From a virus: a stretch of 45,225 bases of DNA. Location of the stretch: positions 1-45,225 of the IMG/VR virus record IMGVR_UViG_3300031576_001130. One strand, 5' to 3'. The notes beneath the pieces are model-generated. The model searched no databases. It had not been told where the DNA came from and saw only the letters and a list, made by a program, of their open reading frames with translations. Of this stretch, positions 4,514-38,439 are shown in pieces (within the stretch, counting starts at the first letter, position 1; the number at the start of each line of letters is the position of its first letter). The translations under genes and the position numbers were made by a program.

Positions 4514-4588
4514 TGGAGCGGGTGAAGGGGGTCGAACCCTCGACATCCAGCTTGGGAAGCTGGCGCTCTGCCACTGAGCTACACCCGC
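4514..4588 (-). tRNA. tRNA-Gly (anticodon CCC)
   Basis: A complete 75-nt cloverleaf on the minus strand. The acceptor stem GCGGGTG pairs with CACCCGC, followed by discriminator T and an encoded CCA. D-stem GCTC/GAGC, anticodon stem CCAGC/GCTGG with loop TTCCCAA (anticodon CCC, reads GGG), and T-arm GAGGG-TTCGACC-CCCTT with one G-T pair. All arms are intact, so it is likely functional and not an attP remnant of a host tRNA. It lies just upstream of the leftward promoter. It may supplement decoding of GGG in a GC-rich genome, or relate to the integration site; neither is shown. Confidence 0.95.
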
Positions 4589-16505: not shown

Positions 16506-16964
16506 ATGAGAAAGTACCAGGTTCCGTTCCAGAACGCGGTCCTGACGGCGAGCATCCTCAACTCGCTGCACCGCATCGTGTCAGGTAGCGCGTACCGCAT
16601 CAACCTCTGGGAACTGTTCCTCGGTTCCAGGGCCTCGGCGGACGCGGCTGCTTCATTCGAGATGGTGCGCGAGACCGCGTTCACCTCCGGTGGCGTGGCG
16701 ATCACCCCGGCCCCCATCGATCAGGGGGATCCAGCTTCCGTGGCCACGGCGTCCACCGGCGCCACGGGTACGGTGTTCGTCGGTCTGACTGGCACCGTGA
16801 TCGTGCTGGCCTTCGGCATGAATCAGCGCGGCACGTACCGCTTCGTCTGCGACCCGGCGACGCCCATCAAGTTCGCCGCCGCGGCGAATGCCGGGGCCGT
16901 CCTGTCGTGTGACTCGGTTTCGGCGGCCTACAACGTCGATGGCGGGAGCGTCTTCTCGGAGTAG
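16506..16964 (+). CDS. Putative minor structural protein
   Basis: A 152-residue protein with AGGAGG before the ATG. It is beta-rich, with Gly/Ala/Thr-rich strands (TGTVFVGLTGTVIVLAFGMNQRGTYRF) and IKFAAAANAGAVLSC, like a small beta-sandwich virion protein. It starts MRKYQVPFQNAVLT. It lies between the duplicated-domain protein and a zinc-ribbon protein in the same block. Function not recognised. Confidence 0.5.
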   Translation: MRKYQVPFQNAVLTASILNSLHRIVSGSAYRINLWELFLGSRASADAAASFEMVRETAFTSGGVAITPAPIDQGDPASVATASTGATGTVFVGLTGTVIVLAFGMNQRGTYRFVCDPATPIKFAAAANAGAVLSCDSVSAAYNVDGGSVFSE

Positions 16965-17377: not shown

Positions 17378-19105
17378 GTGTACCCCACCTGGTGGTACCA
17401 GCAACGATCTGAGCCGATCCCCGACCTGGCGGCACCGCCGCCCGTTGCCTGGGGATGGCAGTCTGCCTTGCCGGCACCGAGACGCCTGGGCCTGTCGGTG
17501 GCGCTCCTGCTCTCGACATCCGTCGCCGTTGTGGTTCCGGTCTCGGCGGTCGGGCCCCTGCCCGAGCTCGCACGGCCCCAGGTTGCTCGTCGTGCCACTC
17601 GGGTAGACCTTGGTGGCGGAGTGGTCTACGATTCTTCCGCCGACAGCGCCGCGGCATGGGGCGTCGACCTGGAAGTGCCACGTAGGCGTCCACCGCGGCG
17701 AGAGGATCCGCCGCAGGTCCTCCACCAGGAGGCGGCCGCCCCTGTCGTGTGGGGGTGGGGGATGGACCTGTGCCGTGCCCCGCCGCGCGTGCCGCTGCGC
17801 GTGCCACCGGTGGTGGTCCCGGTGGTGGGCGAGGCCGCTCCCGCGATCGAGTGGGGATGGCTCGGGGGGCTTGAGATCCCGCGCCAACGGTTCCGCTCAG
17901 CAGCGGAGTCAGAAAGCTGTCCTGCGAGCGTTCAGGGGCAGGCCTGGGGCTGGCAACAAGATCTTCCGGCACCACGCCGACAGCAGCGGATTGCCACGGC
18001 GCAGCCTGGTGCTCTTGGTGCGGCGCCCGACGCTCTCGGATGGCAAGCCCCGTTGGCTCAGCCGGCCTTACGGCCACCGCGCCACCGGGAGCCATCGGCC
18101 GAGCCGCCGGCGGTTACGGGTCAGGCCTGGGGCTGGCAGGGAATGCTGGCGAGTCCGCGACGTCCCGGCGCCGTCCAACGCGACCAAGGCCAGGTGCCGG
18201 TCGTCCAGGCTGCTGCGGCCCCAGTGGCCTGGGGCTGGGCTGGCGAGCTGTCAAGACCGGCCATCAGGCTCCGGCGGCTGGCAGATCCCCAGGCGACTCC
18301 CACGGCTGTCACGGGCCAGGCCTGGGGGTGGCAACAGGACCCGCCGGAACCTCGCCGGCGTCGAGACAGCGCTGCTGCACCTGGCACACTGGGCGCTTCG
18401 ACCGACGCTCTGGGGTGGATGGCCGAGCTCGCGCGCCCTCCGGGGCGCAGGCCTCGTCATGCGGATCCGCCAACCACGCCCCCAGCGGTCACTGGTCAGA
18501 CGTGGGGCTGGGCTGCTCCCCTGGGCGTGCCACGGCGCCCGGCGAAGGTGGCACGTGAGCCCGCATCGGCGCCGATCACCGCTGCTGCCGCCCCAGTGGC
18601 CTGGGGCTGGGCTGGCGAGCTGACTCGGACTCTGCGCCGGCGCCCATCCCCCCTGGTGGAGCTGGTCGTACCACCTGCAGTCGGTGGTCAGGCCTGGGGG
18701 TGGCAGGCGCCTTTGGCCTCGCCCATCCCTCGCCAGCGCGTGCGTGCGGCCGACCAGGGCACCCAGGTCAGGGAGACCACCGACGGGCTTGGCTGGGCTG
18801 CTCCCCTGGCCGTGCCTGCCCTACTCCGGAGCCGCCTCCTCTGGCAAAGCGCAGGCGCGCCCATGGTCTTGCTGCCGCCCGAAGTGATGGCCTGGGGCTG
18901 GGGGCCGCCTCTCGAGGTCCCGAGACGTGCCTCCCGCGCCAAGGCGGAGGAGATCGTGGCGGTGATCCACGCACCCGGGGCATTCACCGCGGGCAACTCC
19001 CGCAAGTGGACAGCGAGGCCACCGGGGACAGGGTGGGTAGCACCGTTCGGAGGGACTGGATGGAAGACTCGACCAGCAGGAACCAATTGGAAGGCTGTGA
19101 AGTGA
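17378..19105 (+). CDS. WGW-repeat protein (about 15 units), unknown
   Basis: A 575-residue protein built almost wholly from about 15 units of about 31 residues. Each has a core like AWGWxxxLxxPRR, or DALGWxAPLAxP, followed by a variable Pro/Ala/Arg stretch. From unit 5 on, four unit types recur in order (GQAWGWQ; DALGW; GQAWGW; APVAWGWAGEL), giving a super-repeat of about 124 residues. The C-terminus differs (TGW, TNW motifs between Pro/Gly). There is no signal peptide. GTG start. Its place in the structural-looking block suggests a virion component such as a fibre or anchoring ladder. The same AGEL-type motif ends the tail peptidase at 34310-34840. No known family is assigned. Confidence 0.6.
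   Translation: MYPTWWYQQRSEPIPDLAAPPPVAWGWQSALPAPRRLGLSVALLLSTSVAVVVPVSAVGPLPELARPQVARRATRVDLGGGVVYDSSADSAAAWGVDLEVPRRRPPRREDPPQVLHQEAAAPVVWGWGMDLCRAPPRVPLRVPPVVVPVVGEAAPAIEWGWLGGLEIPRQRFRSAAESESCPASVQGQAWGWQQDLPAPRRQQRIATAQPGALGAAPDALGWQAPLAQPALRPPRHREPSAEPPAVTGQAWGWQGMLASPRRPGAVQRDQGQVPVVQAAAAPVAWGWAGELSRPAIRLRRLADPQATPTAVTGQAWGWQQDPPEPRRRRDSAAAPGTLGASTDALGWMAELARPPGRRPRHADPPTTPPAVTGQTWGWAAPLGVPRRPAKVAREPASAPITAAAAPVAWGWAGELTRTLRRRPSPLVELVVPPAVGGQAWGWQAPLASPIPRQRVRAADQGTQVRETTDGLGWAAPLAVPALLRSRLLWQSAGAPMVLLPPEVMAWGWGPPLEVPRRASRAKAEEIVAVIHAPGAFTAGNSRKWTARPPGTGWVAPFGGTGWKTRPAGTNWKAVK
17450..18940 (+). repeat. Coding repeat array of the WGW protein
   Basis: Degenerate ~93-bp units encode W-G-W cores. 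A 32-base stretch starting at 18219 recurs exactly at 18591, which sets a 372-bp (124-codon) higher-order period and points to growth by segmental duplication of four-unit blocks. Confidence 0.8.
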
Positions 19106-19106
19106 T

Positions 19107-19403
19107 ATGAGGATCGCTGCCGAAGTCTGCGAGAAGACGCCGTATGAAAAGCTGCCGTACGATTTTGACTTCACCGACGTCCTTTTGACTGGCGAGGTGA
19201 TCGCCGCCAGCCCGCCCCCGACGGTCACGGATACACCCGCGAGTCAGCTCTTACTATCGGCTCCTGTGCTCGCCACCCCAAAGGTGCAGGTAGTCATCGA
19301 CGGGGGCAATGTGGGGGTGGACTACACGCTGAGCTGCAAGGTGACCACGAACCTCGGATACGAAAGGGAGTGCATTGGGCAGCTCAAGGTGCTCAGCACG
19401 TAG
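19107..19403 (+). CDS. Small fibre-domain-like protein
   Basis: A 98-residue protein. KLPYDFDFTDVLLTGEVIAAS followed by VQVVIDGGNVGVDYTLSCKVTTNLGYERECIGQLKVL matches a small Ig-like domain common as single-gene proteins near phage structural genes (a set-up line, then a 'tau-type' Thr/Ser region, then a final strand pair). It starts 1 bp after the WGW gene stops. A terminator follows. Probably a minor virion protein. Confidence 0.55.
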   Translation: MRIAAEVCEKTPYEKLPYDFDFTDVLLTGEVIAASPPPTVTDTPASQLLLSAPVLATPKVQVVIDGGNVGVDYTLSCKVTTNLGYERECIGQLKVLST

Positions 19404-19586: not shown

Positions 19587-20087
19587 ATGCCCAAGAAAGC
19601 GCCATCTGCGAGGTACAAAAGGAGATTAGAGCGGTGGGCGAGCTCCGCATCGAAGGCCGCGGCGGCATGCGGAGTCGGGCGCGGAACTCTCATCGACTGG
19701 ATCAACCAGGGCTGCCCGGGCAAGCAGGCCGGCGGCTACGACATCGAAGCGATCCGGGCCTGGCGCGCCGAGAACAAGGGCGAGGTCCGCGGCGTTGCCG
19801 ACAACGGGGAGACGACGGACGCCGCTCGACTCAAGAAGGCGCAGGCAGATGAGCGCGAGGCGAAGGCGGCCCTCGCCGTGCTCCAACTTGCGATCCAGCG
19901 CGGTGAGCTCCTGCCCATCATCCAGATCAAGGAGCGGGACCTGGCGCGGATCGCGGCGGTGAAGCGCGGGCTCCTCGCCCTTCCGAAGGCGATGGCGACG
20001 CGGCTTGTGGGGCTGCCCCAGAAGGAGATCGAGGTTGCCCTGCGCACCGCCGTCAACGAGCTGCTCCAGAGGTTCGCGAGGATGTGA
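19587..20087 (+). CDS. Terminase small subunit
   Basis: A 166-residue protein. The N-terminus has a winged-helix-like DNA-binding unit (KAAAACGVGRGTLIDWINQGCPGK, then YDIEAIRAWRAEN) as in Nu1-type small terminases. A coiled-coil middle (ARLKKAQADEREAKAALAVLQLAIQRGEL) and a C-terminal oligomerisation or large-subunit-binding end (NELLQRFARM) follow. It recognises the packaging site and recruits the large subunit. There is no Shine-Dalgarno sequence before ATG 19587. The gene overlaps the large subunit by GTGA. Confidence 0.82.
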   Translation: MPKKAPSARYKRRLERWASSASKAAAACGVGRGTLIDWINQGCPGKQAGGYDIEAIRAWRAENKGEVRGVADNGETTDAARLKKAQADEREAKAALAVLQLAIQRGELLPIIQIKERDLARIAAVKRGLLALPKAMATRLVGLPQKEIEVALRTAVNELLQRFARM

Positions 20088-22048
20088 AGAAGCGCAAGCT
20101 CAAGCAGGCCAAAAAGCGGCTCGCGGTCTTCGATAAATGGGAGCAGCGAGCCTGGGAGCCGGTGCCCGAGATCATGGTGGACGAGTGGTCCGAGCAGAAC
20201 CTCGTCCTCCCCCGCCTCCTCGCCGAGATGTCAGGGCCACTGAGCTGGGATGTCGCCCCCTTCGCCCGCGAGATCCTCCAAGCGGCGACGGATCCGGATG
20301 TCGAGGAGATCACCCTGTGCTTTTCCGCGCAGACGTGCAAGACGCTCATCTGCATGTCGATCATCCTCTACTTCCTCGCGAAGGACCCATGGCCCTGCCT
20401 CCACGTCATGGCCCGCGAGGACGACGCGGTAGCCCTCAACGAGACCCGCTACCAGGCGATCATCCGCGGCTCCCCCAACCTCGCGACGCTCCTCACCGGC
20501 GCTGCCCACGACATGACCCGGGAGGCCATCCGCCTGAACGACACGATGCTGACCTTCGTGGGTGCCAACTCGCCGGCCGCGCTCGCCTTCCGGAGCATCG
20601 CGAAGCTCGTCCTCGACGAGACCGACAAGTACCACGAGTTCACGGGCAAGGAGGCCGACCCCATCGCTCTCGCGCGGGAGCGCACGACCACCTACACCTC
20701 GCGCCTGATCCTCAAGCTCTCGACCCCTACGACCGAGCGGGGCTACATCTGGCAGGAGTACCTACAGGGGGACAGGCGCCGGTTCTTCGTCCCCTGCCCG
20801 CACTGCGGCTACTTCCAGCGGCTGGTGATGGGCACGGCGGAGCCAGGGTGCCCCGGGATCAAGATCCCAGCCGGCGAGCGCGACCCCGAGAGGATTGTCG
20901 ACCGCAAACTTGCCTGGTACGAGTGCGAGGGCTGTCGCGGGCGCATCAACGACGCGCACAAGTCAGGGATGCTCAGGGCCGGAAAGTGGGTCCCCGAGGC
21001 CCAGGAACTCGACCCGAGGACGGGCGAGATCAACGGCATCCCTCCGCCTCGGCGGCGCCTGAGCTATCACCTCTCGAGGCTCTACGCACCGTGGTCGAAC
21101 ACCACCTTCTCCCACGTGATCGCGGAGTTCCTCCGCTCGAAGGATATTCCCCGGCTGCTGATGAACTTCCGCAACTCGTGGCTCGCAGAGGTCTGGCATG
21201 ACAAGGTGGATGAAGTGAAGGATGAGCACCTGCGCTCGCGCGTGGGGGCCTACAAGGTCGCTACCGTGCCCGCGGAGGCGCACCTGCTCACCGCCGGGGT
21301 GGATGTGCAGCTCGACCACCTCTGGTACGTGGTCCGCGCCTGGGGACCGCACGGGGAGAGCTGGCTCGTCCGGGCCGGACGCCTCGGCGACTTCGGGGCG
21401 CTGGAAACGGCGCTCTTCCGGGCCCGGTACGGCACCCCTGGGACGCGGGAGACCGTGCCGCTCAAGCTGGTGTTGATCGACGTGGGCTTTGCCGGCCGGA
21501 AGGATGAGGTCCTCGCCTTCTGCCGCAGGAACCACTGCCAGGCCGTCCGCGGCGATGCAAACCCTACCCGGAGCGTCACGACCACCACGCAGACGGATTC
21601 TGCTGGCCGGTCCTCAGGCTTGGTCTTACTCGACACCGGCTACTTCAAGAGCAAGCTCCATCGCCAGATCCGGATCGGGCTGGGGGACCCCGGGGCGTGG
21701 CATTTGCCCGAGGGCCTGGATGAGGAGTATTTCCGCCACCTCGTGGCGGAGCAGCGCATCCTGGTGACGGATAAGAAGACGGGCCGCACCCACTACGTCT
21801 GGCGGGTCTTCCCTCAGGGGGCAGCGAACCACCTCTTCGACTGCGAGGTCTACGCCCTAGCCGCGGCGGAGCTACTCGATGTGGAGTATGCCCTCGTGGC
21901 CAAGACGGGTTCCTCAGCGCCGTCAACGCACTCGGATCCAAGTCCTCCAGCCGCCGAGGGCGAGCCAGAGCTCGTGCCCCAGCGACCGAGAACGCCGGCC
22001 AAGACTCGTAGGTTTACCCGCACCCTCTGCCGAACTTTCTCCAACTAG
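20084..22048 (+). CDS. terL: Terminase large subunit, lambda gpA family
   Basis: A 654-residue packaging motor and nuclease. ATPase half: Walker A-like SAQTCKT (about 81-87), Walker B AKLVLDETDKY (173-183). A four-Cys zinc site (CPHCGY ... CEGCRG) follows, as is usual in gpA-type terminases. Nuclease half: TAGVDVQLD, VLIDVGFAG and HLFDCEVYAL carry the acidic residues. The Walker A has Cys where Gly-Lys-Thr would normally have Gly before Lys. It cuts concatemers and pumps DNA through the portal. GTG start overlaps the small-subunit stop. Confidence 0.95.
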   Translation: MKKRKLKQAKKRLAVFDKWEQRAWEPVPEIMVDEWSEQNLVLPRLLAEMSGPLSWDVAPFAREILQAATDPDVEEITLCFSAQTCKTLICMSIILYFLAKDPWPCLHVMAREDDAVALNETRYQAIIRGSPNLATLLTGAAHDMTREAIRLNDTMLTFVGANSPAALAFRSIAKLVLDETDKYHEFTGKEADPIALARERTTTYTSRLILKLSTPTTERGYIWQEYLQGDRRRFFVPCPHCGYFQRLVMGTAEPGCPGIKIPAGERDPERIVDRKLAWYECEGCRGRINDAHKSGMLRAGKWVPEAQELDPRTGEINGIPPPRRRLSYHLSRLYAPWSNTTFSHVIAEFLRSKDIPRLLMNFRNSWLAEVWHDKVDEVKDEHLRSRVGAYKVATVPAEAHLLTAGVDVQLDHLWYVVRAWGPHGESWLVRAGRLGDFGALETALFRARYGTPGTRETVPLKLVLIDVGFAGRKDEVLAFCRRNHCQAVRGDANPTRSVTTTTQTDSAGRSSGLVLLDTGYFKSKLHRQIRIGLGDPGAWHLPEGLDEEYFRHLVAEQRILVTDKKTGRTHYVWRVFPQGAANHLFDCEVYALAAAELLDVEYALVAKTGSSAPSTHSDPSPPAAEGEPELVPQRPRTPAKTRRFTRTLCRTFSN

Positions 22049-24158: not shown

Positions 24159-26259
24159 ATCACGCACGCCGGGCGAGGTTCTCCGTCGGATGATGGCGAT
24201 CCGTGCCGAGGACCTGGATTCGGAGAGCCGCGAGTTGGAGGTCAGCTTTTCGAGTGAGACGGACAAGATTCGCTTTTGGGGCACGCCGGAGATTCTCCTC
24301 CATGAGGATGGCTCGATGGACATCAAGCCCCTCCGCGATGTCGGCGCCGTCCTCCTGAACCACGACCCCGACCGCATCGTGGGGCGACCTGAGGACATCC
24401 GCCTCGACAGGGATGAGCGAAAGGGGCGCGCCCGGATCGTCTTCGATAGCGACGAGGAGTCCGAACGGGTGCTGGGCAAGGTCCGCAGCGGCAGCCTCCG
24501 CGGGGTGAGCGTAGGCTTCGCGGTCGACCGTTGGCAGATCCTCGATGAGGGAGAGTCCTGGGAAAGTCCCGAGGGAAGGACCTTCGATGGGCCGGCCTAT
24601 CTGGCTACCCAGTGGCGAGTGGTGGAATTCAGCCTGACCCCCATCCCAGCCGACGCGTCTGTCGGGGTGGGCAGAAGTAGTGACGCGAGCCGGGATGACC
24701 CCGGTCAGGGAACACTGGAGGAATACTGTATGGACCCGAAGGTGCGAGCCAAGCTCGAAAAGCTGGGCCTGTCGAAGACGGCGAGTGACGAGGAGGCAAT
24801 CGACTTCCTCGACCAGCTCGAGACAAAGAAGAGGACCGACCCCCCGGAGACGCCACCCAAGCCTCCGGACGAAGGCGGAGAACCTCCGCCATCGGCCGAG
24901 GCGAGGCGAGCGGCTGGCGCCGCCGTGGCGGCTGAGCGCGAGCGTGTGAGCGACATCCGGGAGATGTGCGGGCATTACGAGTGCACGCGCGAGCTTGCCG
25001 ACGAGTTGATCCAGAAGGGCACAACCGTTGCCATGGCGCGGAAGGTGGTCATCGACCGGCTGGCAAAGGAGCGCCCGGTCCTCTCCGGTCCCCGTCGGAT
25101 CGAGTTCGGCGAGGAAGAGCGGACGAAGTTCGCTCGGACTGCCGAGGACTGGCTCGCACATCGGGTGGGTCGCCTCCGCGATCCGGACAAGGACAAGCTC
25201 GCCGGGAGGCTCAATGCCATCCGCTCGATCGACTGCTTCAGCCTCCTCGACCTCGCGCGCGAAAGCTGCCGTCGGGCGAACATCCATGTCGCCGGCGCCT
25301 CACGGGATGAGCTGATAAAGCGCGCGATGGCGCACTCAACCTCGGACTTCCCCAGCATCCTCGAGAACGTCGCCCAGAAGGCGCTGCTCCAGTCCTGGGC
25401 CGAGGCGCCGTCGACCTGGGAGCCGCTCGCGAAGGTGATCAACGCCGTCGACTTCAAGTCGATGAGCCGCGTCAAGCTCGGTGACGCCGGCGACTTGGTG
25501 AAGACTCTGGAGCTGGTGCCGATGTCCCAGGGCTCTCTCGCGGAGGCAAAGGAGACTTACGCGATCGACACCTACACGAAGCGCTTCGGCATTTCGCGCC
25601 AGGCGATCATCAACGACGACCTCTCGGCGTTCGACAGCATCCCCGGGCTCATGGGCGCGGCCGCACGTCGTCTGCCCAACAAGCTCTTCTGGGATCTTGT
25701 CATCTCTGCGGCCGGGATCGGGCCGACAATGGCAGAAGATGCCACCGCGCTTTTCGCCACAACGCATACGAGTGGCTCCAATTACCTGACCGGCGCCGGC
25801 ACTGACGCGATCAACGTGGCGAACCTCGGTGCCGTCAAGGCTCTCATGCGCAAGCAGAAGGGTCTCGCCGCGGCTAACGAGGTGGCTCCGATCCTCAACA
25901 TCATGCCCTCTTTCCTGATCGTCCCCGCGGCAAAGGAGACGGAGGCTCTGCAGTTCATCTCCTCGACCGTCGATCCGGCGAAGTCGAACATGACTCCGAA
26001 CCCATTCGCCAGCGCCATCCAGGTCATCGTCGAGCCGCGGCTCGACGGCGGCACCAACGGCTTGACCGCCTGGATCGTCGTCGCCTCTCCGAGCGCCATT
26101 GCCGGCGCGGAGGTGGCGTTCTTGAACGGCCAGCGCGAGCCGACCCTGATCCGCGTCGATGGCACGGACGTCCTCGGTATCGAATGGGGCCTCTACCTCG
26201 ACGTCGGCGTGAAATTCGTCGAGCACCGCGGCTGGGCCCGCTCGAAGGGCGCCGCGTAG
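24100..26259 (+). CDS. Prohead protease - scaffold - major capsid protein fusion
   Basis: A 719-residue fusion. Residues ~1-200 are an HK97-type prohead serine protease: His88 in LLNHDPDRIVG, Ser137 in SLRGVSVGF and the closing WRVVEFSLTPIPADASVGV. Residues ~211-370 are acidic/Pro-rich and helical, like a scaffold or delta domain. The rest is a capsid protein with the Mu gpT-like pattern SDFPSILENVAQKALL, VDFKSMSRV, ISRQAIINDDLSAFD and a C-terminal GLYLDVGVKFVEHRGWA. An in-frame ATG at 24730 has GGAGG 8 nt upstream and would yield the scaffold-capsid part alone (509 residues). Such fusions are known in other tailed phages. Confidence 0.9.
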   Translation: MPPKTKKKQQIAQRPPKQLRSRTPGEVLRRMMAIRAEDLDSESRELEVSFSSETDKIRFWGTPEILLHEDGSMDIKPLRDVGAVLLNHDPDRIVGRPEDIRLDRDERKGRARIVFDSDEESERVLGKVRSGSLRGVSVGFAVDRWQILDEGESWESPEGRTFDGPAYLATQWRVVEFSLTPIPADASVGVGRSSDASRDDPGQGTLEEYCMDPKVRAKLEKLGLSKTASDEEAIDFLDQLETKKRTDPPETPPKPPDEGGEPPPSAEARRAAGAAVAAERERVSDIREMCGHYECTRELADELIQKGTTVAMARKVVIDRLAKERPVLSGPRRIEFGEEERTKFARTAEDWLAHRVGRLRDPDKDKLAGRLNAIRSIDCFSLLDLARESCRRANIHVAGASRDELIKRAMAHSTSDFPSILENVAQKALLQSWAEAPSTWEPLAKVINAVDFKSMSRVKLGDAGDLVKTLELVPMSQGSLAEAKETYAIDTYTKRFGISRQAIINDDLSAFDSIPGLMGAAARRLPNKLFWDLVISAAGIGPTMAEDATALFATTHTSGSNYLTGAGTDAINVANLGAVKALMRKQKGLAAANEVAPILNIMPSFLIVPAAKETEALQFISSTVDPAKSNMTPNPFASAIQVIVEPRLDGGTNGLTAWIVVASPSAIAGAEVAFLNGQREPTLIRVDGTDVLGIEWGLYLDVGVKFVEHRGWARSKGAA
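24717..24732 (+). promoter_or_regulatory. Internal ribosome site and start within the protease-capsid gene
   Basis: GGAGG (24717-24721), an 8-nt spacer and ATG 24730 lie in frame with the fusion, just after the protease domain. Initiation here would give MDPKVRAKLEKLG ... without protease, the likely major form if capsid must outnumber protease. This recalls lambda Nu3 starting inside gene C. Confidence 0.6.
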
Positions 26260-30312: not shown

Positions 30313-32380
30313 CAACGAGCTGAGCATCATCGTCCGCATGCGCGACTTCGCCACGCAGGAGCTGGCGCGGGTGCGGCGAAGCTTCGGTCAGTTCTCCTCC
30401 GACGTCACCGGCATCTTCGGAGGCCTATCCCGGAGCGTCTTCAGCTTCAAGGGCATCCTCGCCGGGGTCGGGGTGGCGATCGGGGTGAAGGAAACGCTGG
30501 GCGCCATCATCGACACCGCGGGGAAGGCCGACAAGCTGGGCGATCTCTCGCTTCAGCTCGGGGTATCGACCGAGGCCTTGAGCGAGCTGGAGTTCGCTGC
30601 CGGTCAGTCGGGCGCCTCGCTCGAGGACCTCGAGGCGGGGTTCCGCAATCTCCAGAAATCGGTTGGCGAGCTGCGTCTCGGCGGCGGCGAGGGGGCGCAC
30701 AAGCTCTTCAGCCTGCTCAGCGAGGACTTCCAGCGGATGGTCGAGGAGGGCGCTGGGGCGGAGCAGCTCTTCGGCCAGCTCTCAGTGGAGTTTCGGGGCC
30801 TCGGCGATGCGGAGAAGGTGTTCGTCGCGTCGAAGCTGTTCGGGAAGAGCGGGACGCGCCTCATCCCCCTCCTGAGCGAAGACATCGACGAGTTGCGCGA
30901 GATGGCGTCCAAGCTGGGGTTGACGCTCAGCCGCGATGCGGCGCGCGCGGCGGACGCCTTCGGCGACTCCCTGGGTAAGCTCAAGGGCGCCTTCCAGGGG
31001 TTGAAGCAGCAGGTGATCCTGCCGCTCCTGCCGGAGCTGACGAAGGGCCTGGAGTTTCTCACCAAGCTCGTTCGCGAGAACCGCCCGGCGATCATCAATT
31101 TTTTCGCCGATCTCGTGGAGTCGGGTGGCGAAGCCGCCAGGACCTTCGCCGGCCTGATCGTGCAGGTGGAGGCGGCGATCGGCCCGCTGGCTCGCATGGC
31201 GACGCGGCTTGAGATCCTGAAGCTGACCGCCGGTGGGCTGTTCGATAAGTTCGCTGGTGCCCTGCCAGGGGAAACGTTTGAGCAGACGCAGCGCCGCGGC
31301 AACGCCTTGATCCAAGAAGCGGCCGCGCTTTCTGACGAGTTGGGGCGCCACGCGGAGGAGCGGAAGCGCATCCTCGATGGTCTGAGCAAAGCGTTTGAGG
31401 AGAACACCAAGGCGGCGGCGACGCGCATCCGCGCGCTGGCCGCCGAGCTGCAGGCAGTTCAGGATTTCGTCGGTCCGCCGCTCCCCAGGGGCTTCGGGCC
31501 GTTCGGCCCTGAGCAGTTCGTCGGTCCGCCTCTTCCCCCTGGGTTCGGACCCCAAGAGCCGTTGCTGGACATCGAGGATCCCCGCGAGGAGCGGGTCAAC
31601 CGTCTGGCCGAGGCCGAGCGCCGCCGCGCCGATGCGCTCGAGCGACACGAGACGGCAGCGCATGAGAAGTGGATGCAGGAGCACGACGCGATCCTAGGTG
31701 TCAGCGCCGCCCTCGACCAGCTCGCCGACAATTCCACCAAGTGGGGCCTGGCTTTCGGCAGCGCCGTGGGGCAGGTGACGGATGTCCTGGCCAACGACAC
31801 GGTGGACGCGCTCCTCGCCGTCCAGGAGGGGACGGTCAAGGGCCGTGAGGCCTTCCGGCGCTTCGCCCGCGCGGTCCTGGCCGACATCCAGCGGATCATC
31901 CTGCGCCTCATCATCGTGAAGATCCTCGAGGCCGGGATCGGCGCCCTCGGCGGGCTATTCAAGGGAGGCGTCGCCCAGGACTACCCGACAACCGTGGGGC
32001 TACCGGGCGGAACGACGGTGACGCCAGAACGCCTGGGCGGGATTGTTCCCGGGCACCTCATCCCCATCGCCGGCCACGCCCAGGAGGGCACTATCGCGCG
32101 CCGCCGGGGGCTCTACGAGCTCGCTGAGACCGGGCAGGCGGAGCTGGTGGTGCCACTCGCCGGCAACCGCGATGTACCTGTGCGCCTGGTCGGCTCCCGG
32201 CCTTCCGGCGGGCGGGAGGACCTTCGCGCGATGCTGCAGGTCGTAGTCCACTTCCACTCGCATGCCCTGTCCTCGGCCGAGGAGCGGTCGATGCTCGAGC
32301 GGAACGCGCGCATCATCGGTGGGATCGTCGTCCAGGAGGCCAACTCGAAGCTCGCGGTCCGGGAGGGCCTCGCCGCCTGA
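30305..32380 (+). CDS. Tail tape measure protein
   Basis: A 691-residue, largely helical protein. An N-terminal helical bundle with Gly-rich hydrophobic segments (GILAGVGVAIGVKETLGAII) precedes TMP-type blocks (ADKLGDLSLQLGVSTEALSEL, FRNLQKSVGEL, KLFGKSGTRLIPLL). The C-terminal part has a hydrophobic helix (ILRLIIVKILEAGIGALGGLF) and a short beta tail (GQAELVVPLAGNRDVPV) typical of the class. Length sets tail length: about 0.15 nm per residue gives roughly 100 nm. GTG start within the previous gene's end. Confidence 0.93.
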   Translation: MPDNELSIIVRMRDFATQELARVRRSFGQFSSDVTGIFGGLSRSVFSFKGILAGVGVAIGVKETLGAIIDTAGKADKLGDLSLQLGVSTEALSELEFAAGQSGASLEDLEAGFRNLQKSVGELRLGGGEGAHKLFSLLSEDFQRMVEEGAGAEQLFGQLSVEFRGLGDAEKVFVASKLFGKSGTRLIPLLSEDIDELREMASKLGLTLSRDAARAADAFGDSLGKLKGAFQGLKQQVILPLLPELTKGLEFLTKLVRENRPAIINFFADLVESGGEAARTFAGLIVQVEAAIGPLARMATRLEILKLTAGGLFDKFAGALPGETFEQTQRRGNALIQEAAALSDELGRHAEERKRILDGLSKAFEENTKAAATRIRALAAELQAVQDFVGPPLPRGFGPFGPEQFVGPPLPPGFGPQEPLLDIEDPREERVNRLAEAERRRADALERHETAAHEKWMQEHDAILGVSAALDQLADNSTKWGLAFGSAVGQVTDVLANDTVDALLAVQEGTVKGREAFRRFARAVLADIQRIILRLIIVKILEAGIGALGGLFKGGVAQDYPTTVGLPGGTTVTPERLGGIVPGHLIPIAGHAQEGTIARRRGLYELAETGQAELVVPLAGNRDVPVRLVGSRPSGGREDLRAMLQVVVHFHSHALSSAEERSMLERNARIIGGIVVQEANSKLAVREGLAA

Positions 32381-33060
32381 TGGACACGCTCAACCTCGAG
32401 GCCAATGGCTGGCGCATGCAGCGTGAGTACCCCATCCGCCCGCGATTCATCGTCGCTGAGGATGAGCGTGAGCTCGGAAACGTCAAGAGCGTCGCGGTCG
32501 CCCAGAGGGCCCTCCGGCGTTTCACGTTGCGCTATAAGACGGACTTGCGCTCGGCCGCGGAGTACGTCGAGAGCTTCTTCGGGCGGCAGGTGGGGCCGGT
32601 CGCGCGGTTCCAGATGACCCTCCCCGAATACGCCCCGACCCCGGATGCGGCGCCGGTCGTGGAAGCGGTAGCCGGCGGCACGCAGGGCTCGCGCACGATC
32701 TACGTCCGCTTCGCCTGGCGGAACGTCAACGGCACGACGCTTGCCAGCGCCACGGCTTCGATTCTTATCCCGGCGAACAACCTCCTGCGGGTGAAATTCC
32801 CCTACTACCCCCCATCGATCACCCAGGCGGTGGTCTATGCCACGCAGGGCGCGCAGGGGACGGAGGTAGAGCAGACGGTGGTCACGAACCAGCCGAGCTG
32901 GACCCAGCCCAATGCGGCGCTGCTTCTCTTGACCGCTGCCCCGGAGACGGCGAACACGGCGAAGGTGCTGGCGAAGCTGCGCCTCCTGGAGACGTACGAG
33001 CTGATCCGGCAGATCGGCACCCAGTACCAGCTCTCCCTCGATCTCGAGGAGGTCCACTGA
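32380..33060 (+). CDS. Distal tail protein (gpM/DUF2460-like) with inserted Ig-like domain
   Basis: A 226-residue protein. The frame REYPIRPRFIVAEDERELG, RRFTLRYKTDLRSAAEYVESFFGRQVG and the final TYELIRQIGTQYQLSLDLEE resembles distal tail proteins of lambda gpM/DUF2460 type. Between them (about 90-195) lies an inserted domain with YVRFAWRNVNGTTLAS, LIPANNLLRVKFP and WTQP, a beta-sandwich module frequent in phage tail proteins. It overlaps its neighbours by one base at each end. Confidence 0.65.
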   Translation: MDTLNLEANGWRMQREYPIRPRFIVAEDERELGNVKSVAVAQRALRRFTLRYKTDLRSAAEYVESFFGRQVGPVARFQMTLPEYAPTPDAAPVVEAVAGGTQGSRTIYVRFAWRNVNGTTLASATASILIPANNLLRVKFPYYPPSITQAVVYATQGAQGTEVEQTVVTNQPSWTQPNAALLLLTAAPETANTAKVLAKLRLLETYELIRQIGTQYQLSLDLEEVH

Positions 33061-33572
33061 TGCAGGCAACGTCGGCCGTCCTCAAGGCGTGGAAGGGGGC
33101 GGAATCCATCAGCGACCCGCTGGTGGTGCTCTACGACGTCGAGGTGGCAGATGCCCAGTTCCTCCGGCTCGTGGAGGGCGACCCGCTGGGGACCGGCAGC
33201 GTCAGCTATAACGGCCAGACCTACCTCGCCGCGGCGATCGCGCGCGAGGAATTCGCGCAGTCGATCGAGGGTGAGATCCCCGTCCTGCGCGTCGCCCTAT
33301 CCAACATCGATGGCGTCGCCGGCGGCTACATGGAGCAAAACGAGCTCGACGGACGGAAGGTGACCATCACCTACGTCCCAGCCTCCAGCCTCAGTCTTGC
33401 CGACGCCATCGTCCAGGAATTCCGCATCCAGGACCAGGCGTACAACCGCGAGAAGGCCATCCTCACTCTGGGTCACGAGGCGATGTTCCGCCGCAGGGTG
33501 CCGAGCGTGGCGTTCGTCCGCCACAAGTGCCAGTGGCTTTACGAACGGCGCTTTCAGGTCGGTGATGGCTGA
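33060..33572 (+). CDS. gpL-like minor tail protein, N-terminal part up to in-frame UGA
   Basis: A 170-residue reading frame with the gpL pattern: LVVLYDVEVAD, VSYNGQTYLAAAI, VLRVALSNIDG and, near the end, VRHKCQWLYERRFQVGDG. In lambda, gpL has a C-terminal domain with four Cys that hold an Fe-S cluster. Here the first Cys is present, then TGA (33570-33572). The same frame continues without interruption as 33588-34313, which ends with the other two Cys (TCDRTLDGPLGC). So either one gene is interrupted by UGA, or UGA is read through. Confidence 0.75.
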   Translation: MQATSAVLKAWKGAESISDPLVVLYDVEVADAQFLRLVEGDPLGTGSVSYNGQTYLAAAIAREEFAQSIEGEIPVLRVALSNIDGVAGGYMEQNELDGRKVTITYVPASSLSLADAIVQEFRIQDQAYNREKAILTLGHEAMFRRRVPSVAFVRHKCQWLYERRFQVGDG

Positions 33573-33586
33573 GGCTTTCCCTCCGA

Positions 33587-33605
33587 CGTGTTCGGTCCGG
33601 ACACG
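33587..33605 (+). promoter_or_regulatory. Hairpin after in-frame UGA (possible readthrough or SECIS-like element)
   Basis: CGTGTTC-GGTCC-GGACACG folds into a 7-bp stem (one G-T pair) with loop GGUCC, starting 14 nt after the UGA at 33570. The loop begins 22 nt after the UGA, inside the spacing described for bacterial SECIS elements, and has the GGUC seen in the E. coli fdhF loop. GC-rich sequence makes chance hairpins common, so this is only suggestive. Confidence 0.3.
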
Positions 33606-34313
33606 GCCCAGGACTTCATCGTCGGGCGCACCGGGAACGGCGAGCAGAAGCGGCGGTTCGGCTGGTGGACCCTCAACGCCCTGCGCGCCACCGCTTGGGA
33701 CGTCGATCAGTCGACGCCCGACATGCTGCACATGGAGGCGGAGGGGGATGGTATCGACTGGTCGGCTGGCATCCACGATGGGCCCTTCGGCTTCAAGAGG
33801 ATCACGGGGGATTTTGACGTCTACTCTCTCGTCGAGCCCATTGCCGACCGCATCGGGTTCATGTTCGGCCTCTGCTGCCAGGAGGACGCCGACCTCTTCG
33901 ACTCCTGGGTGTTTGCCGGCTGGACGCTGAAGAATGACGAGCAGCGGGCGCTGCGCTTCGCCTCTGCCGAGGATTCCGTCGCCGGCGCCAAGGTGGATCT
34001 TACGGGGGTGACGGACTCCATCCTCCGGCTCACCCGCGCCGGCGACGTCTTTACAGCCCACTACAGCGCTGACGCCGTGTCGTGGGTGCAGCTCGCGCAA
34101 CGGACGGTCGTGCTCGACGCGGCAGTCCGGCTCGGCTTCCTCCTCGCCGCTCCTGGCATCGAGCATTCGGCCATCGGCGGTATTGCCCACTACCTGCAGT
34201 TCCGCTCGGGTGGTCTGAGCACTTGCGACCGCACGCTCGACGGCCCCTTGGGCTGCCGCGTGCACGACAACGCGCACCGCATCCGCATGATGCCAGGGAT
34301 TCCCCGGCGATGA
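33588..34313 (+). CDS. gpL-like C-terminal part with inserted lectin/glucanase-like domain
   Basis: In the same frame as 33060-33572, 15 bp past its stop. From GTG 33588 it would be 241 residues, but there is only a weak ribosome site. Most of it (about 40-215) is a DUF1349/concanavalin-like beta-sandwich: GDFDVYSLVEP, IGFMFGLCCQ, DSILRLTRAGDVFTAHYSADAVSWVQLAQ, VRLGFLLAA. The end STCDRTLDGPLGCRVHDNAHRI is the gpL-type Cys motif. The lectin-like domain has been inserted inside the Fe-S domain, between the Cys pairs. It may bind cell-surface sugars at the tail tip. Confidence 0.65.
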   Translation: MFGPDTAQDFIVGRTGNGEQKRRFGWWTLNALRATAWDVDQSTPDMLHMEAEGDGIDWSAGIHDGPFGFKRITGDFDVYSLVEPIADRIGFMFGLCCQEDADLFDSWVFAGWTLKNDEQRALRFASAEDSVAGAKVDLTGVTDSILRLTRAGDVFTAHYSADAVSWVQLAQRTVVLDAAVRLGFLLAAPGIEHSAIGGIAHYLQFRSGGLSTCDRTLDGPLGCRVHDNAHRIRMMPGIPRR

Positions 34314-34840
34314 AGCTCCAGGCCCTGTCAATCAACGCTTTCAGCTTCCCGACCTATCTCGTCGAGTACGAGGACATGGTGGGCTGGCGCTACGCGACGG
34401 CCGGTCGCTCCCTCGCCGGCGTCGACTGCGCCGGGGTGATCCTCGAGATCTACCGCCGGGCCGGCCTCGGCCTGCCTGACCCAGCGCGTGGACTGATTAC
34501 GGAGTTCGGCATGGCATGGGAGAAGGTCTCCGCGGCCGACACCCTGTACGACCTCCTGCGCTTTCGGCCCGACACCGGCGGCCTCGCTGGCCAGGACCAC
34601 CTCGGGGTCCTGGTGCGGCCCGACGTCGTCCTCTCCGCGACCAGGGTCCTGGGTGTCCACGCTCGTCCCCTCGCGGTCTACGCGCGCATCCCGCGCGTCG
34701 AGAACTGGCGTCTGAAGGCATCGGTCATTCCGATCGGACCTGCCGTACCGCCAGACATATGGGGCTGGGCCGGCGAGCTGGCAACACCAGTTTCCCCATC
34801 TCCAGTTGGCAGCGATTTCGGTTGGGGGGCTACCCTATGA
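34310..34840 (+). CDS. NlpC/P60-type tail tip peptidase (gpK-like) with WGW C-terminus
   Basis: A 176-residue protein. Catalytic Cys40 lies in GVDCAGVILEIYRRAGL and His97 in GQDHLGVLVRP, as in NlpC/P60 peptidases; a His near 117 may be the third residue. Such tail-tip enzymes cut cell-wall peptides on infection. Residues about 149-176 (DIWGWAGELATP ... FGWGATL) carry the same WGWAGEL and GW motifs as the repeat protein at 17378-19105. No gpI-like gene is recognised. Start ATG 34310 overlaps the previous stop; the end overlaps the tip protein gene by ATGA. Confidence 0.8.
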   Translation: MKLQALSINAFSFPTYLVEYEDMVGWRYATAGRSLAGVDCAGVILEIYRRAGLGLPDPARGLITEFGMAWEKVSAADTLYDLLRFRPDTGGLAGQDHLGVLVRPDVVLSATRVLGVHARPLAVYARIPRVENWRLKASVIPIGPAVPPDIWGWAGELATPVSPSPVGSDFGWGATL

Positions 34841-37800
34841 TCACCGTGCGCAGGATCGGCGACATCATGCGGCCGAGCGAGCGGCAGGTGCGCGAGGAAC
34901 TGGCAGGGGCGGAGATCATGGAGTACGCGCCTCCACAGTGGGTGGGGAATCAGAGCCTCCGCTGCATCCACAACGGGAATTGCCTGACCGAGGGTGAGGC
35001 CGCGGGCATCATGCCCGAGGAGGGGGACGAGCTGATCTTCTATCTGCTGCCAGGGAGCGCAGGCTTTGGCGAGGCCCTGCTCGTCTCTCTCATCGTGAGC
35101 GTCATCCTCACGGGCATCAGCTTCGCCATCCAGGCGCTGACCGCGCCCTCTATTCGTGGGCTTGAACACGACCAGGCATCGAGCCCCACCTACGGCTTCG
35201 ATGGCATTTACAACACCGTCCGGCCTGGCACGCGGGTCCCCCTCATCTACGGGAAGCATCGGTTCGGCGGTCACATCCTCCAGCAGTTCGTCCGTCCGCA
35301 GCGCGACCCGCCGGAGGGTGAGGCTGATCCGCAGGCGGGCGAGCTCCACACGCTCCTAGGGCTGGGCCTGGGGCCGATCGATGGCGTGGAGGATCCTCGG
35401 ATCGACAAGTCGCCGTGGAGCGACTACGGCATCCCTCAGCCGGAAGTCCGACTCGGCGGCATTCACCAGGCGCCCATCCACGGCTTCCACGACGTGGTGA
35501 CGGTGCAGACGAAGGACATCCTCATTACCTTCGTCGGCGGCGCGGTGCAGGTCACGACCTCGGGCCAGATCGATGCCTTCGAGCTGCAATTTCGATTCCC
35601 TGGCGGGCTGTACCGCGTGAGCGACCGCGGCGGCTTTCGCCAGCGGAGCATCAAGATCCAGGTCGATTATCGAGAGGCTGGAAGTCCCAACTGGATCTTT
35701 GCCGGAGTCAAAACCGTGACCAGCCGCTCCTCCAGCACCTTCGATGCGTGGTTCGACTCGGGGCCACTGAGCCGTGCCCAGTACGAGATACAGGTTACCC
35801 GCCTGACGGAGGACGACACCAACGCCACCGGCTTCTCCGAGCTCAAGCTTTTCGCCGTCAACGAGGTGACGGATGAGACGCTGACCTACCCGGGGATCGC
35901 GCTTGTCGGTATCCGGCAGTTGCCGACCAACCGGGTGCAGGGCCGGACTCCCACCTACGACTTTTTGGTTCAAGGGCGGCTCGTGCGCGTCTACACTGAC
36001 CTCGCGACTTATACCACCATCTGGACCGACAATCCTGCCTGGTGCCTCCTCGACTTCCTCACGGGGCCCGATTCCCTGGGTCCGTGGATCAAGGACCAGC
36101 ACGTGGATCTCCAGAGCTTCCTCGACTGGGGGCAGATGTGTGCGACGGAGAATCTCCACCTCGACCTGGTGGTCGACGGCTCGTTAACTGCCATCGACAC
36201 CATCAAGCAGATGTGCGTCGCCGGTCGGGCGCATTTCCTCTTCCGCGGCAACAAGTGGGCGGTCCGGCCGGCAAAGAAGGAGCCGCCGGTCCAGCTCTTC
36301 ACCATGGGGCGCATCGGGCGGCGAACGTTCGGCGTGCACAAGGACTCGCGAATCAAGGCTGCCAACTACCTTATCGGGCAGTTTGCGAATGCGGAGTTGG
36401 ACTACGAGAACGACGGTCTGCCCGCGGAAGACCCGACCCTGAGTGCGACGGATGACAAACGCGAGCAGACGGTGAACCTCATCGGTGTTACCAGCCCCGA
36501 CCAGGTCCGGCGCCTCCTCGACCACTACCTGCTGTCGAACCGTCTGGAACGGCGGCTCATCGAGTTTGAGGCAGGCGTTGAGGCGATCGCCATGGAGGCT
36601 GGCGATGTCTTCAAGGTCGCGCACGACGTCCCAGGCTGGGGCTTTTCGGGCAAGGTGCGAGCGGTCGAGAGTGGCGGCGTCGTCCTGATCCTTGACCGGC
36701 TGGTGACCATCGAAGCGGGGAAGACGTACGAGCTGACGGTCATTCACGCGGCGGACCAGATCGACGTCATGGGGGTAACCAACACGGTGGTCGAGACGAC
36801 CCAGCGCGTGAACATCGCCGGCCAGTGGAGCGTCACACCCGTCGAAGGCCTGGACTACAGCTTCGGCGAGGTGACAAAGAGCACGGTCCTCTATCGCTGC
36901 CTATCGATAACCAGCGGCAGCGCGCCGTGGCGGCGCAAGATCCGTGCCCGCCAGTACGACGAACGCGTGTTCGACGCGAACCTCCTCGCGCTGGAGACGC
37001 CGAGCGTTTCGCGCCTGCCCGATCCGGCGCGCCTGCCGGCGGATGTGAAGAACCTCCGCCTCGAAGAACTCCAGGAGTATTCCCAGGGTGGCGACCTCCG
37101 GGCGGCCATCGCCGTCTTCTTCACCCTCCCGGTCGAGCCCGGGGTGTCAGCTCAGGTCTACTGGCGTGAGCAGGGGCTCACGGGGTGGGAGACGACGGGC
37201 GTCCTCCTCACGGGAGGATATGCCACGGTCACCGAGGGCATCCGGAGCCCCGGCATCACCTACGAGGTGTCCGTCGTCAGCGTCTCCGCCCTTGGTGCGC
37301 GTCGATCGCCGGACGCCGGAGTCAGAGCGGTGATCTCTATGCGCGGCGTCACCCGTCAGCCTGACCGAGTGGCTGGCTTCCGTGCCGACCGGACGGTCAC
37401 CGGGCTCATCTTCGAGTGGGATGCGCTCGACCCGGTCAAGAATTACGATCTCGACTACTACGAGATCCGCCACGGCGCCCAGTGGGAGACGGCTTCGCCG
37501 ATCGCGAAGACACAGGACACGCGCTTCGAGTCGAGCCTCATCCTCAAGGGCACGCACACCTTCCTCCTCAAGGCGCGGAACACCGCGGGCAACGAGTCCG
37601 CTCAGGCGTCGGCCGTGATCCTGGTCATCCCCGGCCGGATCTCGGAGAACGTGATCTTCACCCGCGACGAGGGCCCGGCCTGGACGGGAGTCAAACAGGC
37701 ATTCACCGTCTCTGGAACCGAGCTGGTGATGGACACCACCACCTTCCTCCTCGGTTGGCGCACGCGACCGCGGCAAAGCGCGATCGGCGGCGGCCACCGG

Positions 37801-38439
37801 CCCGGTGGCATGGGCGAGAGTTTCCGCGCGATCGGAGAGTACGTCACCGTGGCCTTCCAGGTGACGAGCGGTGCTGCGGTCCGCTGCCTCGTCAGCCATC
37901 TTCTCCAGATGACCCAGGTCGATGTCTCCGCCTACTGGACGGCGCCCGGCGTGGGGGACAAGACCTGGGAGTCGGACTTTGCGCGTACCCGCCGGTGGGC
38001 GGTCGCCCCCGAGGGGCGCGTCAACTACCGGGTGGAGATACGGTTCTCGACCACTGGCTCGAACGAGACGGACTTCGGGCCCTGGCAGGAGCGAGCGCCG
38101 AACATCGAGGCGTCGGTCAAGTGGGCGCAGGCGCGGCTGTTCGTCGAGGTCCTCGACCCGGCCTTCCTGGTCAAGGTGCAGCAGCTCAGCCTCATCTTCG
38201 ACGTGCCCGACGTCATCGATGCCGGCCAGATTGCCACCCTGACCAGCGGCACCGTCGCCGTGAGCTTTACAAAGACCTTCAACCAGGTGCCGAAGATCGT
38301 CGCCATAGCGATCAGCGCCTCTGCCGGCGATCAGGTGAGAGTCACGAGTCCGACCACGACCGGCTTCACGCTCGACGTCGTGGATAGCGGGAGCATTCGC
38401 GTCGCGCGCACCGTCAATTGGACAGCCGTAGGATTTTGA
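34837..38439 (+). CDS. Tail tip/central fibre protein, gpJ-like
   Basis: A 1200-residue protein. Start ATG 34837 overlaps the previous stop; the frame is also open upstream but there overlaps the peptidase gene. A hydrophobic segment (about 90-108, LVSLIVSVILTGISFAIQAL) and YNTVRPGTRVPLIYGKHRFGGHI are typical of gpJ N-termini. The middle (ADEL-type hub domains, NPAWCLLDFLTG, FLFRGNKWAVRPAKK) forms the hub. Two fibronectin-III-like units follow (about 830-935), then a C-terminal beta region (about 950-1200) likely to meet the receptor. It probably determines host specificity. Confidence 0.92.
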   Translation: MITVRRIGDIMRPSERQVREELAGAEIMEYAPPQWVGNQSLRCIHNGNCLTEGEAAGIMPEEGDELIFYLLPGSAGFGEALLVSLIVSVILTGISFAIQALTAPSIRGLEHDQASSPTYGFDGIYNTVRPGTRVPLIYGKHRFGGHILQQFVRPQRDPPEGEADPQAGELHTLLGLGLGPIDGVEDPRIDKSPWSDYGIPQPEVRLGGIHQAPIHGFHDVVTVQTKDILITFVGGAVQVTTSGQIDAFELQFRFPGGLYRVSDRGGFRQRSIKIQVDYREAGSPNWIFAGVKTVTSRSSSTFDAWFDSGPLSRAQYEIQVTRLTEDDTNATGFSELKLFAVNEVTDETLTYPGIALVGIRQLPTNRVQGRTPTYDFLVQGRLVRVYTDLATYTTIWTDNPAWCLLDFLTGPDSLGPWIKDQHVDLQSFLDWGQMCATENLHLDLVVDGSLTAIDTIKQMCVAGRAHFLFRGNKWAVRPAKKEPPVQLFTMGRIGRRTFGVHKDSRIKAANYLIGQFANAELDYENDGLPAEDPTLSATDDKREQTVNLIGVTSPDQVRRLLDHYLLSNRLERRLIEFEAGVEAIAMEAGDVFKVAHDVPGWGFSGKVRAVESGGVVLILDRLVTIEAGKTYELTVIHAADQIDVMGVTNTVVETTQRVNIAGQWSVTPVEGLDYSFGEVTKSTVLYRCLSITSGSAPWRRKIRARQYDERVFDANLLALETPSVSRLPDPARLPADVKNLRLEELQEYSQGGDLRAAIAVFFTLPVEPGVSAQVYWREQGLTGWETTGVLLTGGYATVTEGIRSPGITYEVSVVSVSALGARRSPDAGVRAVISMRGVTRQPDRVAGFRADRTVTGLIFEWDALDPVKNYDLDYYEIRHGAQWETASPIAKTQDTRFESSLILKGTHTFLLKARNTAGNESAQASAVILVIPGRISENVIFTRDEGPAWTGVKQAFTVSGTELVMDTTTFLLGWRTRPRQSAIGGGHRPGGMGESFRAIGEYVTVAFQVTSGAAVRCLVSHLLQMTQVDVSAYWTAPGVGDKTWESDFARTRRWAVAPEGRVNYRVEIRFSTTGSNETDFGPWQERAPNIEASVKWAQARLFVEVLDPAFLVKVQQLSLIFDVPDVIDAGQIATLTSGTVAVSFTKTFNQVPKIVAIAISASAGDQVRVTSPTTTGFTLDVVDSGSIRVARTVNWTAVGF

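Follow-up and report, generated by a model that had tools for sequence, protein, structure and literature searches.

Phage lambda encodes gpK, an NlpC/P60 protein whose gene lies between L and J and which carries a second, N-terminal metalloprotease-like domain. Repeats such as GW or choline-binding repeats target cell-wall hydrolases to their substrate. GW modules are wall-binding elements of the Listeria type, and GW/WG motifs are also known as the Argonaute-hook. Small modules are exchanged between phage particle proteins, the known ones being mostly folded domains, and some phage proteins contain W[FY]xxLSEPV repeats. The closest counterparts of the enzyme described here are the C40 tail peptidases of Bradyrhizobium phages, which have the same fold, the same catalytic Cys and His, and a gene placed between the hub and J-like genes.

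The sequence analysed is a virus record of 45,225 bases, referred to in full as the window. Its NlpC/P60 (C40-type) tail peptidase of 176 aa is encoded on the + strand at 34310..34840 (ATG at 34310, end at 34840), between a lambda-L-like and a J-like gene, and its stop codon overlaps the J start. The tail module runs from the tape measure gene through 32380-33060 to a DUF1833/lambda-L-like hub gene (33060..33572, + strand; PF08875, E 5.8e-6), a DUF1349-like frame, the peptidase and a J-like central tail fibre (34837..38439, + strand; phrog_31, E 1.2e-112). This is the gene place of lambda gpK, with the L-like (DUF1833) gene upstream, the DUF1349-like frame in between and phrog_31 downstream, but at 176 aa and with one Pfam match the window peptidase is devoid of the second, N-terminal domain of gpK. 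PF00877 (NLPC_P60) aligns with residues 25-116 at 20.1 bits (E 6.3e-4), below the gathering cut-off of 23, and phrog_329, a minor tail protein, matches at 8e-6. An AlphaFold2 model based on 6 aligned rows has a mean pLDDT of 68.5, with blocks of 69-89 over residues 71-140. The closest solved structures retrieved with this model by Foldseek are the NlpC/P60 enzymes MepS/Spr (E 2.6e-5; TMt 0.57-0.70 among the first 15 matches), pointing to a papain-like NlpC/P60 fold. The available excerpt of PMC10721106 reports that gpK was not found in lambda virions by mass spectrometry; by analogy, the window peptidase may therefore have its role in assembly, without necessarily being part of the particle, and the claim of the first-pass annotation that two structural proteins share a motif is to that extent unproven.

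The genes flanking the peptidase have features of their own. The N-terminal part of J (35074-35286) matches PHROG 32, a tail assembly protein, as if a gpI-type protein had been fused to J. The hub gene contains an in-frame stop at 33570-33572, where all three relatives covering the site (L048, L280 and L283) continue through a cysteine. Beyond this stop the frame extends to 34313 and includes a DUF1349-like part and two further conserved cysteines. The DUF1349-like domain (33588-34313; weak, E 8e-4) seems to interrupt the hub C-terminal domain, as an insertion that separates its second cysteine from the third, and L048 has the same part with 41% identity. The stop may reflect a mutation, an assembly error or recoding, and RNA folding at 33570-33572 revealed nothing unusual (z 0.63). 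For lambda gpL, the available excerpt of PMC10721106 links four cysteines to an iron-sulfur cluster.

The window peptidase can be divided into a conserved catalytic core (residues 1-141; 34310..34732, + strand), in which Cys40 and His97 are invariant in 6/6 aligned proteins, and a lineage-specific C-terminal tail (residues 142-176; 34733..34837, + strand), which is predicted to be disordered, with pLDDT blocks of 42-57. The last 35 residues, IGPAVPPDIWGWAGELATPVSPSPVGSDFGWGATL, contain WGWAGELATP and FGWGATL, as the first-pass annotation had noticed, the WGW beginning at 34760 and the FGW at 34817.

About 16 kb from the peptidase gene, the window encodes a protein of 575 aa (17378..19105, + strand) with 15 tryptophan-containing units, spaced 29-35 aa apart except for one interval of 67. 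The units read WGWxxxLxxPRR and have the core W-x3-L-x2-P, with L at W+4 in 14/15 units and P at W+7 in 13/15. Units with this core are called W-units, a name coined in this analysis. The 575-aa protein, with a pI of 11.4 and 10.1% Arg, is strongly basic; 17 W-unit proteins of other phages have pI values of 5.3-10.0. Its gene is followed by a 98-aa gene (19107-19403), the terminase small subunit gene (19587-20087; phrog_57, E 1.5e-19) and the terminase large subunit gene (20084..22048, + strand; phrog_15, E 9.1e-157). A 719-aa frame at 24100-26259 has PHROG matches to head maturation protease as well as to major head protein, as expected of a fused protease-capsid protein, and a tRNA-Gly (ccc) gene is located at 4514-4588 on the minus strand.

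The heptapeptide WGWAGEL of the peptidase tail recurs in units 8 (18230..18250, + strand) and 12 (18602..18622, + strand) of the 15, confirming the match reported earlier. The similarity covers about 28 residues and takes in a whole repeat unit: the tail after Pro141 aligns ungapped over 28 residues with repeat unit 7 (PAVPPDIWGWAGELATPVSPSPVGSDFG versus PAVTGQAWGWQGMLASPRRPGAVQRDQG). The Smith-Waterman score between tail and repeat protein is 70, a value reached by 0/5000 shuffled tails (mean 35.9, maximum 68) and by 0/2000 shuffled repeat proteins (maximum 66); 23 other frames of the window, cut into 1639 stretches of 35 residues, give 46 at best. By mean BLOSUM score the tail is as close to the 15 units (35.8) as these are to one another (32.2), and it ranks 7 of 16 among them. 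The tail keeps the unit core (W, G, W, L and P) and lacks the Arg-rich stretch that follows the Pro and forms the second half of a repeat unit.

A softened profile was derived from the 15 repeat units with the tail left out. In its ranking of 652 window ORFs the peptidase frame comes second (E 4.7e-8; best single unit 18.6 bits), surpassed only by the repeat protein, and the best of 3260 shuffled ORFs reaches E 6.9e-5. With the default-weighted profile, the whole-ORF score of the peptidase is no better than that of the best shuffle (8e-9 vs 4e-9), while its single-unit score is 20.6 bits vs at most 12.8 in ten listed controls. The single-unit score (18.6-20.6 bits) is the better measure, because a shuffled copy of the repeat ORF scores equally high overall under default weighting. 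Shuffling, BLOSUM rank and profile match thus define a W-unit, PAVPPDIWGWAGELATPVSPSPVGSD, at 34739..34816 (+ strand). It may be followed by a truncated second unit, FGWGATL (34817..34837, + strand), which has the same W-x3-L spacing and is weak by itself, its score being equalled in 56/2000 shuffles.

Two Trp/Gly/Pro-rich stretches might merely look alike, and both are indeed rich in W, G, P and A, with FGWGATL not significant when taken alone. This explanation is highly improbable: the shuffle tests (0/5000 and 0/2000) and the rank of the tail within the repeat family reject a chance resemblance. That the tail is one genuine copy of the repeat unit, matching beyond the WGW alone, is well supported by these comparisons, and they likewise support the view that the shared motif is not an effect of composition.

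A different question is whether the tail unit is a recent copy, made within this genome, of a unit in the repeat gene, recent intragenomic copying being one of the two possibilities raised in the first-pass annotation. Over 21 bases, 34760-34780 differs from 18230-18250 at one position, exactly as described there, and this best 21-mer identity of 20/21 is matched by 0/300 other windows (maximum 18). The longest exact DNA match, 11 bases, is not unusual (reached by 78/500). Given the shared 7-residue peptide and the codon usage of the genome, however, at most one mismatch is expected in 9.4% of draws (P about 0.09), and two repeat units with the peptide WGWAGEL were available as match partners. 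The 20/21 match thus follows largely from shared peptide and codon usage and does not demonstrate recent copying. Alignment of the two genes at the DNA level bears out the short match but not a recent origin: over the 26-codon unit, the tail is on average 42% (at most 54%) identical to the repeat units, which are 45% identical among themselves. Third-position GC is 0.51 in the tail (18/35), 0.87 in the core (123/141) and 0.73 in the repeat gene (420/575), the tail value being below that of the core (p 1.3e-5) and below that of the repeat gene (p 0.011). In composition the tail thus differs from the rest of the peptidase, and it is not what a fresh copy of the repeat gene would look like. On these grounds recent copying is rejected as an explanation, and it is considered very unlikely.

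Comparison with homologous peptidases bears on when the tail arose. Eight were compared, namely L048, L279, L280, L283 and L284, and L050, L051 and L052 from annotated phages; L049, L281 and L282, which come from the same contig as L048 or a matching one, were not counted again, and L053 was left out. The nearest relative is the L048 peptidase, which is 43-45% identical to that of the window. The peptidases of L279, L280 and L283 have no tail and end within one residue of the Pro141 position, those of L050 and L052 end near the end of the core, and that of L051 has a short extension. In L284 (5914-10647), the C40 peptidase continues in one open frame into a J-like protein, whose J-like part matches phrog_31 (E 1.4e-93) and is 27% identical to the window J, a PHROG 32-type N-terminal part being present as well. 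L048 has a tail of 34 residues. It was considered as a decayed unit, as the aligner placed its WATEI on WAGEL, but was rejected as such, its score of 31 against the repeats lying at the shuffle mean of 30.9.

The tail is thus absent or unrelated in 8/8 homologs, and neither WGW nor FGW occurs in any of their tails (0/8), so that the window peptidase is alone among the NlpC/P60 (C40) proteins compared in having a W-unit tail. Whether homologous NlpC/P60 phage proteins also end in WGW units, as the first-pass annotation had asked, is answered in the negative by these eight. The same annotation had held that homologs lacking the motif, together with a match expected from composition, would speak against its observation; the homologs do lack it, but the shuffles show the match to exceed what composition predicts. 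The comparison with the eight homologs suggests that the core is old and that the tail is an addition at the peptidase/J junction, the unit having probably been added there in the lineage of the window phage. An addition at this place fits the phage LSH1 paper (PMC13243795), whose available excerpt describes hypervariability as focused on the site where the lambda hub is divided among several chains. The tagged peptidase is known from one phage only, and a viral_contigs search for close relatives of the peptidase alone returned nothing useful.

Repeats with a related core were sought with a DNA pattern derived from W[FY]xxLSEPV repeats. The IMG/VR scan gave 25 loci, of which 18 hold an ORF with two or more units, and 86 distinct units from 17 proteins were combined into a W[FY]-type profile; the gene calls had missed the L274 array and a second, two-unit frame of L256. 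Elsewhere the typical unit is W[FY]xxLSEPVR, ending in a Gln-rich stretch. The repeat proteins of the uncultured phages L276, L262, L266 and L272 share the W-x3-L-x2-P core and a similar period with the window protein. The W-unit proteins elsewhere differ from it in having W[FY]xxLSEPVR units, which were seen in arrays only, whereas the window has WGWxxxLxxPRR units and one single copy.

Kinship between the two unit types depends on how the profiles are weighted. Neither the default profile of 86 units with bias correction nor a profile from 25 units found the window repeats. With a softened family profile and no bias correction, the window protein was detected at E 2.5e-10, compared with 0.061 for the best of 3168 reversed or shuffled control ORFs, and its GW tryptophans fell in register with the family tryptophan. 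Reciprocally, a softened window-unit profile recovered L276 (2e-24), then L266, L267, L256 and L255, before the first low-complexity match; the best shuffle scored 8e-8, and the remaining W-unit proteins therefore do not stand above it. The default-weighted window-unit profile was swamped by Arg/Pro-rich frames and did not separate W-unit proteins from shuffles. In a profile-profile comparison the two unit types aligned in register (E 7.5e-4, probability 25%), with a score reached by 0/300 column shuffles and not by the reversed profile; the W, F or Y, L and P columns are not independent evidence here, because pattern and filter had fixed them. Softened profiles and column shuffles favour this kinship and default weighting does not show it; the window repeats probably belong to a wider phage W-unit family.

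Arrays of W-units share proteins with different domains, namely laminin-G and a virion structural PHROG in L267, fn3 and a head-closure PHROG in L256, and a Gly-rich domain in L258 (weakly in L273). Twelve virus records with units have them in one frame in 11 cases and in two frames in one. No convincing isolated W[FY]-type unit outside arrays was found in 4136 predicted genes or 25,475 six-frame ORFs with profiles that are blind to a single WGW-type unit. Single matches in L025, L115, L157 and L215 were rejected as spurious by eye: three had no tryptophan in the best-matched stretch, and the L157 match was short and lay in a 77-residue frame. In this sample of loci, the peptidase tag is the only single unit outside an array. 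A model of the W-unit protein L259 (8 aligned rows) has a mean pLDDT of 36 and no confident fold.

Further searches defined the reach of the family. The searched libraries, Pfam and NCBIfam included, hold no unit model that matches above its cut-off, and the sub-cut-off or short matches in unit regions include PF25479 (25.5 of 27 bits) and NF046037 (18.8 of 38 bits) in L255, and phrog_31034 (E 7e-4). Searches of viral_contigs and of 50,697 phage records with the window repeat protein yielded nothing useful, and the latter set was equally unproductive for the W-unit proteins L272, L266 and L276. A DNA pattern for WGW pairs was scanned in viral_contigs, and visual inspection of the at least 120 stretches obtained (L054-L173) showed nothing beyond chance W-rich frames and proteins of other kinds. 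The best 80 of 422 terminase relatives in genome_contigs yielded nothing useful, and no spaced W-L-P array was seen in a set of 253 loci once L002, the window's own repeat gene, was set aside. None of 385 genomes from the class of a Pararhizobium genome contained W-units at E 1e-4, a weak result in a set with no known positive. In a limited literature search the literal motif strings were not found, and no such repeat was named in titles or the beginnings of abstracts. The W-unit family therefore appears to be undescribed in the libraries searched.

The gene neighbourhood offers independent support for the kinship of the window repeats with the W-units. Upstream of the repeat gene, the window encodes a 152-aa protein (16506..16964, + strand) with homologs in 10/25 pattern loci, several of the 25 being short fragments and L254 and L271 being near copies. 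Relatives were found in L255, L262, L274, L254, L271 and L258 at E 3.4e-4 or better (E-values from a small database), and through these in L273, L259, L278 and L268. All 10 loci have the arrangement of the window, with the 16506-type gene upstream and on the same strand; it lies 0.3-2.8 kb from the W-unit gene. Elsewhere in 291 sequences no match at E 0.01 was obtained apart from L285, a re-fetch of L258. L262 also resembles the window in the proximity of a terminase: its W-unit gene is followed by one small gene and then by the terminase gene (phrog_38, 6.8e-64). The annotated phage record MW202566 has a 16506-type gene two genes after the major head protein and no W-units in the 16 kb examined, and the pairing of the two genes is therefore not obligatory. 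The 16506 family matched no PHROG at E 0.001, and its best solved relative by sequence was unconvincing (E 0.1). A viral_contigs search with the protein encoded at 15180-16469 returned nothing useful.

With respect to function, the Trp-Gly pairs in the repeats of the window protein recall GW modules and the Argonaute-hook, but this is a resemblance only: the window repeats differ in length and context and have no Pfam match. A Pfam search of the repeat protein gave no family at E 0.05, the GW module (PF13457) included. The unit could be a cell-wall or surface-glycan binding module that aims the peptidase at its substrate, in keeping with its presence on an enzyme with a peptidoglycan-peptidase fold and with a lectin-like domain in a W-unit protein of another phage. 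Such a role is nevertheless unlikely. Neither the peptidase nor the repeat protein has a Pfam cell-wall-binding module, and a single unit of about 26 residues with no predicted fold is unlike folded wall-binding repeats. In addition, the neighbourhoods of W-unit genes contain packaging, connector-type and virion structure genes.

The reading favoured here, tentatively and at somewhat less than an even chance, is that the peptidase tail is a disordered docking tag, a unit inserted at the peptidase/J junction in this lineage that recruits the enzyme to the partner of the repeat protein. A piece of DNA encoding a W-unit would have been inserted between the peptidase and J genes in the lineage of the phage, not as a fresh copy of its own repeat gene. 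The repeat protein would be multivalent, offering many short binding motifs in a row, and the one unit on the peptidase would guide the enzyme to whatever partner the array binds, either while the tail is being assembled or in the particle. A partner common to both proteins is possible, and we infer that the best candidate would be the 16506-16964 protein family, with the 16506 gene product itself as the candidate in the window. Docking is favoured because the spaced tryptophan motifs look like a docking array, the single copy looks like a recruitment tag and the tail is predicted to be unfolded. Also in favour are the various virion-type domains that accompany units on proteins of other phages, the lack of a confident fold in the L259 model and the pairing of W-unit genes with 16506-type genes in 10 loci. 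Counting against docking are the L048 tail of similar length that is unlike the units, the missing Arg-rich half of the tail unit and the confinement of W[FY]-type units elsewhere to arrays, together with the failure of default-weighted profiles to find the window repeats, the profile-profile probability of only 25% and the single tagged phage.

Nearly as likely is a passenger origin, in which W-unit DNA landed at the variable peptidase/J junction and persists harmlessly, with no function on the peptidase; one genome cannot decide between the two. Tails that differ in length and sequence between the window and L048, their absence from L279, L280 and L283, and the fall in third-position GC from 0.87 in the core to 0.51 in the tail are all compatible with a passenger, as is the hypervariability described for the lambda hub-splitting site in the available excerpt of PMC13243795. 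Drift would, however, be expected to erode such a passenger, and the unit core still shows its W, G, W, L and P.

If docking is nonetheless the right reading, it could be extended, although this is doubtful, to W-units in general as a portable docking motif of tailed-phage particles. Arrays would then hold a partner, the 16506-type protein for example, in the manner of scaffolds, and an enzyme could be recruited through one grafted copy. On this view the first tagged enzyme seen would be that of the window, otherwise an ordinary phage NlpC/P60 protein; what is new at this locus is that an enzyme bears such a unit. The findings hint at an undescribed plug-in module of virus particles, and the W-unit would provide a handle on a repeat family in many uncultured phages for which the searched libraries hold no model above cut-off. 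A short tryptophan unit, used both as an array and as a one-copy enzyme tag, would represent a simple wiring of virion proteins.
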